DNA from: Alphaproteobacteria bacterium
GTDB lineage: Bacteria; Pseudomonadota; Alphaproteobacteria; Puniceispirillales; Puniceispirillaceae
DNA length: 64,000 nt
Reading direction: 5' to 3'
Assembly (NCBI GenBank): GCA_009920665.1
Contig: RFZL01000005.1
Span: forward strand, 1-64,000
Part shown: positions 34,170 through 40,414 of the stretch, piece after piece
Numbering within the stretch: position 1 is the stretch's first letter
Layout: each line of letters starts with the position of its first letter
Position numbers and translations under genes: made by a program
The notes under the pieces: model-generated
What the model saw: only the letters and a program-made list of their open reading frames with translations
Database searches by the model: none
What the model was told of the DNA's origin: nothing

Positions 34170-34976
34170 TCAGTCCTCGGCTTCCGGCGGTACGGCCACG
34201 GTATTGAAGCCGCCATCGACGAAATGCACTTCGCCGGTGACGCCCGATGACAGGTCGGACACCAGATACAGGCCGGACCGGCCAACCTCGGAGATGTCGG
34301 GATTGCGGCGCAGCGGCGCGCTGTCCTCGGCGTGGCGGTAGATATGCCGTGCGCCGGTGATGGCCGCGCCGGCCAGCGTCTTCATCGGCCCCGCCGACAG
34401 CGCGTTGACGCGGATATTCTGCCCGCCGAGATCGACCGCCAGGTAGCGCACCGAGCTTTCCAGCGCCGCCTTGGCAACGCCCATGACATTGTAGTTCGGT
34501 GAAATCCGCTGCGCGCCGATATAGCTGAGGGTCAGCAGCGCCCCGCCATCCGGCATCATGCCGCGTGCTGCCTGCGCCACCTCGGTGAAGGAAAAGGCCG
34601 ACACCATCATCGTGTCGATGAAATTCTGGCGGCTGGTATTGAAATAGGCGCCCTTCAGTTCGGACTTGTCGGAAAAGGCCAGCGCGTGGACAACGAAATC
34701 GACGCTGGACCAGTGACCGGCAAGCCAGTCGAAGGCGTTGGCGACAGCGCCCTCCTCGGCCACGTCACATTCGACCATCAGATCCGACCCCACCGATTCG
34801 GCCAGCGGGCGAAGCCTCTTGCCGAACCCCTCCATCTGGTAGGTGAAGGCAAGCTCGGCACCGGCCTCGGCGGCGGCGGCGGCGATTCCCCAGGCGCTGG
34901 ACCGCTCATTGGCGACACCCATGATCAGCCCGCGCTTGCCGGCAAGAATGCCCCCGGCCACTCCAGACGTCCCCAT
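34170..34976 (-). CDS. fabI: Enoyl-[acyl-carrier-protein] reductase (NADH)
   Basis: Final reduction step of each type II fatty acid elongation cycle; a short-chain dehydrogenase. About 268 residues. The N-terminal cofactor segment is GKRGLIMGVANERSSAWGIA, and the catalytic Tyr-x6-Lys is in PNYNVMGVAKAALE. ATG 34976 gives the family start; the longer open frame overlaps fabB. One base separates it from the fabB stop, so the genes are co-translated. Order on the minus strand: fabA, fabB, fabI. Confidence 0.96.
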   Translation of the reverse strand: MGTSGVAGGILAGKRGLIMGVANERSSAWGIAAAAAEAGAELAFTYQMEGFGKRLRPLAESVGSDLMVECDVAEEGAVANAFDWLAGHWSSVDFVVHALAFSDKSELKGAYFNTSRQNFIDTMMVSAFSFTEVAQAARGMMPDGGALLTLSYIGAQRISPNYNVMGVAKAALESSVRYLAVDLGGQNIRVNALSAGPMKTLAGAAITGARHIYRHAEDSAPLRRNPDISEVGRSGLYLVSDLSSGVTGEVHFVDGGFNTVAVPPEAED

Positions 34977-34977
34977 G

Positions 34978-36210
34978 TCAGACCTTCCGCAAAGCCAGTG
35001 TGGCGTTGGTGCCGCCGAACCCGAAGGAGTTCGAGAGCGCCAGCCTGATATCGGCATTATCGACCCGTGTGGTGGGCACCGGAATGTCGCCGATGGCCGG
35101 GTCCGGCGTCTCGATATTGGCTGAGGCGGCGATGAAGCCTTCCTGCATCATGATCAGCGTATAGATGGCCTCCTGCACACCGGTCGCGCCAAGCGAGTGG
35201 CCGGTCAGTGATTTGGTTGAGGTCACCGTCGGCAGATAGCCGCGCGGGCCGAACACCTCGCGCACCGCGTCCAGCTCCTTGACGTCGCCAACCGGTGTCG
35301 AGGTGCCATGCGCGTTGATGTAATCGACCTGTTCGGCAATCGGCGTGCCGTCGAAACCGGCCAGTGCCAGTTCCATGCAGCGGACCGCGCCTTCACCTGA
35401 TGGCGCGACCATGTCGTGCCCGTCCGAATTCGCGCCATAGCCGGCAATCTCGGCATAGATTTTTGCTCCGCGGGCCAGCGCATGCTCCATATCCTCGACC
35501 ACGACCATGCCGCCACCGCCGGCGATGACGAAACCGTCGCGGTCGGCATCATAGGCGCGCGACGCGCGTTCCGGCGTGTCGTTATATTTCGAGGACATGG
35601 CGCCCATCGCGTCGAACAACACCGACAGCGTCCAGTGAAGCTCCTCACCGCCGCCGGCAAAGACGATGTCCTGGCTGCCATTGCGAATGGAGTCGACAGC
35701 CGAGGAAATGCAATGCGCCGAAGTCGAGCAGGCCGAGGTGATCGAGAAATTCAGCCCCTTGATCTTGAAGAAGGTGGCGATACAGGCCGACACGGTGGAG
35801 GACATGCAGCGTGGCACCATATAGGGGCCGACGCGCTTCGGGCCCTTTTCGCGGGTGACGTCGAAGGCCTGCATCATATTGGCTGTCGAGGGACCGCCGG
35901 AACCGGCAATCAGCCCGGTGCGTGGGTTCGACACCTGATCCTCGCCAAGGCCGGAATCGGCGATGGCCTGTTCCATGGCCAGCACCGCATAGGCAGCGCC
36001 GTCCCCCATGAAACGAAGCTGCTTGCGGTCAATATGCTCGGCTATGTCCATCTTGACGGTGCCGTGGATCTGGCTTCGGAAACCAAGCTCGGCATATTCC
36101 GGCGCATGGACGATTCCCGAACGGCCCTCGCGCAGCGAGTCCGTGACCTCGGCGACATTGTTGCCGATCGAGGATACGATACCGATACCGGTGATGGCGA
36201 CGCGGCGCAT
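34978..36210 (-). CDS. fabB: 3-oxoacyl-[acyl-carrier-protein] synthase I
   Basis: Condensing enzyme that elongates unsaturated intermediates made by FabA. 410 residues of thiolase fold with catalytic Cys161 in [10 protein letters not shown], and His residues in [11 protein letters not shown] and [11 protein letters not shown], the C-H-H set expected for KAS I/II. Two bases separate it from fabA. The fabA-fabB pair marks the anaerobic unsaturated-fatty-acid pathway, giving cis-vaccenate type membranes. Confidence 0.97.
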
Positions 36211-36212
36211 GA

Positions 36213-36731
36213 TCAGGCCTCCTCTGGCTTGAACAGGCCGACACGAATGTCGTTGGCCTCGAAAACGGTCTCGCCGTCGCAGATGACGCGGCCATCGGCG
36301 ATGCCCATGACGAGCCGCCGCATGATCACCCGCTTCATGTCGATCTCATAGCGGACAAGCTTGTTTGTCGGCAGGATCTGGCCGGTGAATTTCACCTCGC
36401 CAACCGACAGGGCGCGCCCCCGCCCCTCGCCACCGGCCCAGCCGAGGAAAAACCCGACAAGCTGCCACAGCGCATCCATGCCAAGGCATCCCGGCATCAC
36501 CGGATCGCCCTCGAAATGGCAGGGGAAGAACCACAGCTCGGGGTTCAGGTCAAATTCCGAGATGATTTGTCCCTTGCCATGCGCGCCGCCGGTATCATTG
36601 ATCTCGGTGATGCGGTCGCACATCAGCATTGGCGGCAGCGGCAGTTGCGGATTGCCGGGCCCGAAAAGCTCGCCCTTTGCGCAGGCGATGAGTTCGTCGT
36701 AACTAAAGGCGTTCTGCTGCAGTGGCGGCAT
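36213..36731 (-). CDS. fabA: 3-hydroxydecanoyl-ACP dehydratase/isomerase
   Basis: Introduces the double bond at the C10 stage of fatty acid synthesis. 172 residues, the normal length, with the hot-dog-fold motif [22 protein letters not shown] split here as [13 protein letters not shown] (catalytic His) and CLGMDALWQ (catalytic Asp). ATG 36731 ([14 protein letters not shown]) is the family start; an open frame extends upstream but is not family-like. Divergent from irr, an order seen in many Alphaproteobacteria. Confidence 0.97.
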
Positions 36732-36917
36732 GTGGTCTGTCCCCGATGTGAAGTGATACCGAAATCTGTGGGGCCATCTGCCCGTGGGCATTCGGCAGAG
36801 GATTCGTGGCCGCCGACGGTCATCCATCCTCCATGACCATGCCGCCAACAGGTCTCCAAAAAAGCACGAAACGGCCTCTGAGGCCAAGGATTATTGACAA
36901 CAGATGACCAAGCAAGC

Positions 36918-37376
36918 ATGTTTCTTTGCACGATGGTTGAAGTGATCGGGAATGACAGTCACGCGCAAGGCGACACGGTACTGGCACAGCGCCTTCGCGA
37001 CGCTGGCCTGCGGCCGACCCGCCAGCGTCTGCTGATCGCCGAACTGCTGCTTGATGGCCGGCACCGCCATGTATCCGCCGACAGCCTGGCCCGCGAAATT
37101 CGCGATACCGGTACACATATGGCCGGCGGCACCGTCTACAACACGCTGAACCAGTTCACCGAGGCCGGTTTGCTACGCCGCGTCACCATCCATAATGAAT
37201 GCAGCGTGTTCGACACGAATACCGACCATCACCACCATTTCTATGATGCCGAGCGCGACCAGCTGATCGATATTCCGGCTGACGCGGTTACGCTGGCCTC
37301 GCTTCCCGGCGCGCCTGACGGCCACGCCATCCGGTCGGTCGATGTGCTGATCCATATTTCGCCGCGTGACGATTGA
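36918..37376 (+). CDS. irr: Iron response regulator Irr (Fur family)
   Basis: Fur-superfamily repressor/activator that in Alphaproteobacteria responds to haem status rather than to Fe2+. About 152 residues: winged-helix DNA-binding domain (LRDAGLRPTRQRLLIAELL, AGGTVYNTLNQFTEAGLL) and dimer domain with the histidine cluster TDHHHHFYDAE typical of Irr. The C-terminal CxxC zinc pairs of classical Fur are absent. The start is uncertain: ATG 36918, ATG 36933 and TTG 36894 are in frame; a TTGACA hexamer at 36894-36899 could be a -35 element, which would favour 36933. An Irr-box-like palindrome lies downstream, before katG. Confidence 0.9.
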   Translation: MFLCTMVEVIGNDSHAQGDTVLAQRLRDAGLRPTRQRLLIAELLLDGRHRHVSADSLAREIRDTGTHMAGGTVYNTLNQFTEAGLLRRVTIHNECSVFDTNTDHHHHFYDAERDQLIDIPADAVTLASLPGAPDGHAIRSVDVLIHISPRDD

Positions 37377-37428
37377 GAGCTCGCCGTCATCATCGCCGGA
37401 CAGGGCGCGTTGATGTGACAAAAATAGA

Positions 37429-37451
37429 CAGTTTAAAGTCATTCCAAACTG
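37429..37451. promoter_or_regulatory. Candidate Irr box (ICE-like palindrome) upstream of katG
   Basis: The core 37432-37448 reads TTTAAAG-TCA-TTCCAAA, a 7-3-7 layout matching 11 of 14 arm positions of the rhizobial ICE consensus TTTAGAA-N3-TTCTAAA. CAG and CTG outside it extend the symmetry to 23 bp. It lies 96 bp before the katG start and 53 bp after irr. Confidence 0.45.
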
Positions 37452-37525
37452 CTTGATTTTGCGCGGAACGCTCCATACCATCAGAACAGGTTTCACGCCC
37501 GGTATGCCGGGCATTATGGCGGTGA

Positions 37526-39739
<2,214 letters not shown>

Positions 39740-39768
39740 CATCTGTTGGCACAGGAATATATCCGGGA

Positions 39769-39799
39769 CGGCGCCGCGGCATGATCGCGGCGCCGTTTT
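39769..39799 (+). terminator. Intrinsic terminator after katG
   Basis: CGGCGCCGCG (39769-39778), 7-nt loop, CGCGGCGCCG (39786-39795), then TTTT. A 10-bp perfect G-C stem; strong terminator 29 bp after katG, facing the convergent SH3 gene. Confidence 0.9.
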
Positions 39800-39847
39800 C
39801 CTTTGTAGGCCTATTATGTTTTGTGAGGTCTTCTTATGTCGTCGGGC

Positions 39848-40414
39848 CTAATTCAGAACCTCGCCCTCGATCAGGCCCCAGAGCGAGGTGCGGGACACCC
39901 AGCCGCGAATATCGCCGGCGGCCACCCGGCACCATTGGGTCGGGCAGGATTGCAGCTCCAGCAGCGCGTTGCGTTCGGCAACCGCGACCAGACCGGCACC
40001 GTCATCAGCCTCGGTATAGAGGCGCGCCGAGCTTGTTGTCACAAGCACCATCCGTTTCAGCGATACCACCGAATGATGCATCCAGCCGGTCGTCCCGTCA
40101 TGGTCGACAACCTTGCGCCACACGCCGAATTCGGCCTCGACCCGCAGCGGCAGCCCGGTTTTTCGGTAGTGCCAGAGAATCGGATATTCGGTTCCCGGCC
40201 CGGCCCGCATGTTCACATTGTCGGATTTCAGCGTGACAAAGCGTGGCACCGGCAGGCCGCTGCCGCGAACGGTCAGCCGGATTTCACCGGAATCATCGGC
40301 GGCAAGGGCGGGGGCGACAGCATGCTGTCCCCCGATACCGCTGACGGCACCGAGAAGCGGCAGACACAGAAGTGGTAAAAGGAGCCTGGCGACAGGTCGA
40401 AAAGATTTTTTCAT
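39848..40414 (-). CDS. Exported SH3-domain protein
   Basis: 188 residues. A basic N-terminus and hydrophobic stretch (KKSFRPVARLLLPLLCLPLL) ending near APALA-AD indicates a Sec signal peptide. The mature part contains a bacterial SH3-like domain (VNMRAGPGTEYPILWHYRKT, then WRKVVDHDGTTGWMHHSVV) and a second degenerate copy (ARLYTEADDG to WCRVAAGDIRGWVSR). Such domains often bind wall peptides. Members of this family are frequently found beside a 2-hydroxyacid dehydrogenase gene, as here. No enzymatic domain is visible. Confidence 0.88.
   Translation of the reverse strand: MKKSFRPVARLLLPLLCLPLLGAVSGIGGQHAVAPALAADDSGEIRLTVRGSGLPVPRFVTLKSDNVNMRAGPGTEYPILWHYRKTGLPLRVEAEFGVWRKVVDHDGTTGWMHHSVVSLKRMVLVTTSSARLYTEADDGAGLVAVAERNALLELQSCPTQWCRVAAGDIRGWVSRTSLWGLIEGEVLN

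Follow-up and report, generated by a model that had tools for sequence, protein, structure and literature searches.

The 170-bp gap between irr and katG in this alphaproteobacterium holds a candidate Irr box, and a box was found in all 53 loci of the order in which irr lies beside katG. Conservation, not palindromy, makes the box convincing. We consider it probable that it is an Irr operator (iron control element, ICE) of the katG promoter, at which haem-free Irr would repress katG until it is released by haem or peroxide; the conserved site suggests that katG is controlled in this order by Irr instead of OxyR, the usual peroxide sensor. Irr as the binder, repression as its effect and, from the analogy of studied Irr proteins, haem or peroxide as the signal are all what we infer.

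The irr-katG locus and the box

The window, the whole stretch of 64,000 nucleotides that was analysed, is part of contig G000:C149 of a 2.69 Mb source genome in 214 contigs, whose size and relatives point, as a guess, to a marine alphaproteobacterium of the SAR116 type. The first-pass annotation had placed an ICE-like palindrome between irr and the gene of a haem catalase, and both gene calls hold. The upstream open reading frame (36894..37376, forward strand) encodes a Fur-superfamily iron/haem response regulator with a Pfam FUR domain, which scores 159.3 bits with the NCBIfam IrrA model NF045678 (cut-off 150) and 149.0 bits with NF045677, below the cut-off of 170. Its start codon is uncertain (TTG at 36894, or ATG at 36918 or 36933). 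The haem-binding HxH motif is present (DTNTDHHHHFY); in many Irr proteins of the order HxH follows DTN in the stretch that was displayed, and in others the HxH displayed is an earlier one. The Cys-Pro haem regulatory motif, confined to the Bradyrhizobium subtype, was not seen in the N-terminal stretch of any listed Irr of the order, the window protein included, and according to excerpts of PMC3413700 the Rhodobacter Irr is likewise without it. The downstream gene (37547..39739, forward strand) is katG, encoding the haem catalase-peroxidase, with 1152.8 bits in TIGR00198 (cut-off 770). Divergent from irr lie fabI-fabB-fabA (34170..36743, reverse strand), of which fabA and fabB exceed their NCBIfam cut-offs and the best FabI matches of fabI stay below theirs; a fabA match adjoins irr in most of the order loci L002-L032. 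No Rfam match was found across 36000-40000.

Between the irr stop at 37376 and the katG ATG at 37547, the core TTTAAAG-TCA-TTCCAAA of 7-3-7 architecture occupies 37432..37448, enclosed by the outer 23-bp inverted repeat CAGTTT-N11-AAACTG (37429..37451). The core is situated in the katG promoter, as had been claimed, 4 nt 5' of the -35-like hexamer TTGATT (37453..37458, forward strand), which a spacer of 17 nt separates from the -10-like TACCAT (37476..37481, forward strand). A generic scan for sigma-70 promoters gave nothing in the gap at its stricter setting, and the katG promoter is therefore weak by consensus.

The element that had been described as an Irr-box-like palindrome was confirmed as real. 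As a palindrome it is ordinary: 8 of the 11 arm positions of the 23-bp repeat pair, and 190 23-mers of the window are equal or better, so that palindromy alone was rejected as evidence for a site. The ICE consensus is TTTAGAA-N3-TTCTAAA, from which the window box deviates at three of 14 positions, making it a weak ICE, and from which the consensus of the order loci, TTTAAAATCATTCTAAA, differs by a single mismatch. Scored with a profile of the order boxes that was built with the window site included, the box outscores every other 17-mer of the window, with 24.9 bits vs 9.8 for the next place. It also matches 15 of the 17 positions of a consensus drawn from 41 loci outside its own genus, a level not attained in any of 2000 shuffles of the intergenic region that holds it.

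Conservation within the order

Sixty-one genomes were sampled from the genus, family and order to which the window belongs; they are not independent of each other. An Irr/Fur match was obtained in 58 and, by reading of the match table, a close Irr in 55. In 53 of the 61, irr immediately precedes katG in the same orientation, and the box is present in every one of these 53 gaps. As to the other two genomes with close Irr, one stops at a contig edge (G019) and one has katG elsewhere (G037). Positions 2, 3, 6, 12, 15 and 16 of the box are invariant in all 53 loci. The consensus of the 41 loci outside the genus of the window was matched at 14-16 of 17 positions in all 12 gaps of that genus; with 2000 shuffles for each gap, no match of this quality arose. 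The weakest box of the order (G027, locus L053) has an 11/17 match. No clear covariation was seen between box variants and the recognition helix of Irr.

The placement relative to the promoter is conserved as well. A TTGA-type -35 lies 3' of the box in all 49 loci outside family f3, with a spacer of 4 nt in 40 loci, 5 nt in eight and 6 nt in one. In the four genomes of f3, one locus each, the box ATTAGAAT-N-ATTCTAAT is 3' of the -35 and reaches the -10, which is an operator position. Two f3 loci also show TTGAC 2 nt 3' of the box, taken for chance because another TTGAC lies 5' of it. The check that had been proposed for the element, conservation upstream of katG in relatives, thus came out in its favour: in the 53 order loci, in front of a katG distant from irr (G037) and in the class-wide enrichment described below.

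Relocation and loss of irr

In G037 katG is located about 230 kb from irr and still has the box upstream (TTTACACTCATTCTAAA, 22.1 bits), every other place in the 2.4-kb stretch scoring below zero. The Irr/Fur search of the 61 order genomes found no close irr in G022 and G028. In both (loci L110 and L109) pnp-fabI-fabB-fabA is followed directly on one contig by the SH3-domain gene and those after it, the genes that adjoin katG in the window, with neither irr nor katG in between. It is a clean loss or move of two genes, and katG is found elsewhere in both genomes. The box at katG is degraded in G028 and still fair in G022 (20.2 bits) despite the absence of a close irr, so loss of irr goes with decay of the box in one of the two cases. 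Four further genomes (G026, G031, G036 and G044), which have no irr or Fur only, also have no fabA matches and are incomplete.

ICE sites before katG across the class

The class sample comprised 385 genomes, with katG in 139 and Irr (at E 1e-14) in 240. Outside the order, 120 katG promoters of 500 nt each were examined, originating from 112 of the 134 katG-bearing genomes as counted from the table; those omitted include matches without a katG start. With up to two mismatches allowed, an ICE precedes katG in 30 of the 91 promoters of irr-bearing genomes vs one of the 29 of irr-less ones (Fisher 6e-4), and with three mismatches in 37/91 vs 2/29. At two mismatches the reversed ICE matched none of the 120 promoters, and 22 of 6000 shuffles gave a match. 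The association of ICE with irr gave p 0.024 in a rank test and a median p of 0.011 when one promoter per family was taken; 20 of the 48 irr-bearing families have at least one ICE. In the family of the sole irr-less genome with an ICE (G427), irr is present in the other members that were sampled (G147, G259 and G350). Adjacency of irr and katG outside the order is seen from the coordinates of the class matches in G377, G346 and G371. In G187 (L116) the order is reversed, with katG first, irr about 150 nt downstream and a box in the katG promoter. L117 (G069) and L306 (G202) each have a tandem of two ICE-like boxes, spaced by about 30 nt, upstream of katG.

A named set of 80 katG loci had no ICE at two mismatches in its 14 alphaproteobacterial or 65 other loci, one locus being too short; this set is a negative control for the ICE and adds no positive.

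Proposed mechanism and alternative explanations

According to the model that we favour, haem-free Irr made from the upstream gene would, when haem is short, bind the box against the -35 hexamer and keep katG low. With haem at hand, or after oxidation of haem-Irr by peroxide, Irr would leave or be degraded and katG would be transcribed, and KatG would therefore be made when its cofactor is available and its substrate is present. Irr is described as binding the ICE in its haem-free form, with repression or activation depending on the position of the ICE (PMC7762939, in part; also PMC5587712, in part), and Bradyrhizobium Irr as being degraded upon exposure to H2O2 (PMC4902296, in part, citing earlier work). 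In Rhodobacter sphaeroides Irr binds two promoters, that of mbfA, where transcription starts within the box, and that of the haem peroxidase gene ccpA, which is expressed at a higher level without irr under iron limitation (excerpts of PMC3413700). The same excerpts report no binding of Rhodobacter Irr to the katE promoter, and this counts against the explanation. Further points against an Irr operator are the weak ICE of the window itself, the fair box of irr-less G022, the 61 of 91 class katG promoters of irr-bearing genomes in which the ICE is absent at two mismatches, and the 0/14 among the named alphaproteobacterial loci.

An unlikely but serious alternative is that Irr binds the box as an activator that contacts RNA polymerase from about -48, with katG highest at low haem or iron. 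The centre of the box just 5' of the -35, the near-constant spacing and the weak promoter hexamers would fit this, and Irr is reported to act in both ways by ICE position (PMC7762939 and PMC5587712, both in part). Against it, the four f3 genomes have the box of this very gene 3' of the -35, a position suited to blocking, and four of the 30 class ICE sites are likewise just 3' of a -35-like hexamer (seven are just 5' of one and 19 are unclear). Production of a haem enzyme under haem shortage would also be hard to explain. A box that abuts the -35 in most loci of the order and reaches the -10 in f3 seems to suit repression best.

Much less probable is that the box is bound by another factor, for example the other Fur-type protein of the genome (G000:C2:108149-108499). 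The genome does have two FUR-domain genes, and Fur is reported as a direct regulator of katG in Magnetospirillum gryphiswaldense (PMC5459824, in part), but the box matches the Irr consensus, is associated with irr across the class and adjoins irr in 53 genomes.

Control by OxyR, with the palindrome being incidental, we find barely credible in this order. OxyR controls katG in Caulobacter, as the title of a work referenced in PMC11475020 indicates, and 32 of the 120 class promoters have an oxyR-like gene in divergent orientation to katG. The NCBIfam OxyR model at E 1e-40, however, found no match in any of the 61 order genomes, and as a control it matched six of the 14 named genomes, Caulobacter included; a diverged OxyR below this threshold is possible in the order. 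OxyR alone, named by the first-pass annotation as the competing regulator, is weakened here because no OxyR was found in these 61 genomes. The conserved box argues against it as well, and at the katG promoters of the class the ICE and a divergent oxyR tend to avoid each other: among the irr-bearing ones a divergent oxyR-like frame accompanies two of the 30 promoters with an ICE vs 27 of the 61 without (p 1.5e-4; median 0.011 with one promoter per family). The motif that defined these frames was fixed after the translations had been viewed, as a first LysR regular expression matched none, and a few of the frames caught by it are not clearly LysR. Similarly improbable is a plain UP-like promoter part with no regulator. 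That the stretch is A/T-rich and abuts the -35 would fit this, but its conservation is two-armed with a TTT..TTC..AAA pattern, the element is 3' of the -35 in f3 and it is enriched in the irr-bearing genomes of the class sample.

Number of boxes per genome

The strict pattern TTTRRAAYCATTYYAAA, with one mismatch allowed, was searched in 25 chosen genomes of the order. It matched 21 katG sites and 16 other places vs 19 matches of the reversed control pattern (as counted from the table), and hence no excess of boxes beyond katG is seen at this stringency; a wider regulon gains no support, and weaker additional sites may exist. In the genome of the window the katG site is the sole match. Six of the 16 other places were inspected: four are inside reading frames of at least 100 aa, one is between frames (L074) and one is just 5' of a frame (L094). 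The latter box, TTTGAAACGATTCCAAA (L094 1501-1517; G018:C1:239858), is inside a short frame and precedes a 177-aa frame, which by its look we take to encode an MntR-type regulator. A further box, TTCAAAATCATTCTAAA (G046:C199:5189-5205), borders on the second of the Fur-type matches in its genome. Looser patterns were discarded: in the window's own genome one matched three places vs four for its control, and across the 61 genomes one was swamped by A/T-rich genomes.

Autoregulation of irr through a box of its own was also rejected for the order in general. By profile score, a strong box before irr occurs only in G059 (27.5 bits), and the best place before irr in the window scores below zero. 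In G059 boxes without a pattern mismatch flank irr, one before irr (G059:C14:83402-83418) and one before katG (83837-83853), as if irr might also be autoregulated in that species.

Relation to known systems

The Irr/ICE systems of rhizobia and Rhodobacter share with this locus an IrrA-type protein, a 7-3-7 box and a haem-iron enzyme as the target, and the box at ccpA of R. sphaeroides is comparably placed, about 40 nt before the start (PMC3413700, in part). They differ in that rhizobial Irr controls many genes, whereas in this order the target is the adjacent katG, with no excess of further boxes in the 25 genomes. Putative Irr sites before catalase-peroxidase genes were found by Rodionov in 2006, as told in part of a 2008 paper (PMC2464607). 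These predictions concern the same regulator family and kind of target, the likeness being one of description and not of compared sites or species, and Irr control of katG is thus already a printed prediction. Neither the pairing of irr with katG in this order nor its fixed spacing nor the alternation of ICE and oxyR was met in the literature searched, which did not extend to the 2006 site tables.

The FurA-katG pair of actinobacteria is a known counterpart of such an arrangement. There too a Fur-superfamily gene immediately precedes katG in the same orientation and presumably controls it (PMC2464607, in part). The order differs in having a regulator of Irr and not Fur type and a separate katG promoter that carries the box; a strong box before the regulator gene, by profile score, is limited to G059. 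With the OxyR-katG systems of other alphaproteobacteria a peroxide-linked control of katG would be shared, the difference being that no OxyR was found in this order.

Taken jointly, and more tentatively than the operator itself, Irr, once a global iron regulator, could have shrunk in this OxyR-less marine order to a switch with its neighbour katG as nearly the sole target, a haem-read functional replacement of OxyR/PerR, and katG could be under Irr or OxyR across the alphaproteobacteria as two alternative schemes; we regard this as a possibility that we would not yet call likely. Control of katG by Irr would by itself explain how catalase-peroxidase is regulated in probably marine bacteria without OxyR and would tie the production of a haem enzyme to the supply of haem. 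The alternation of ICE and oxyR offers a testable rule for the controller of katG in a new alphaproteobacterial genome.
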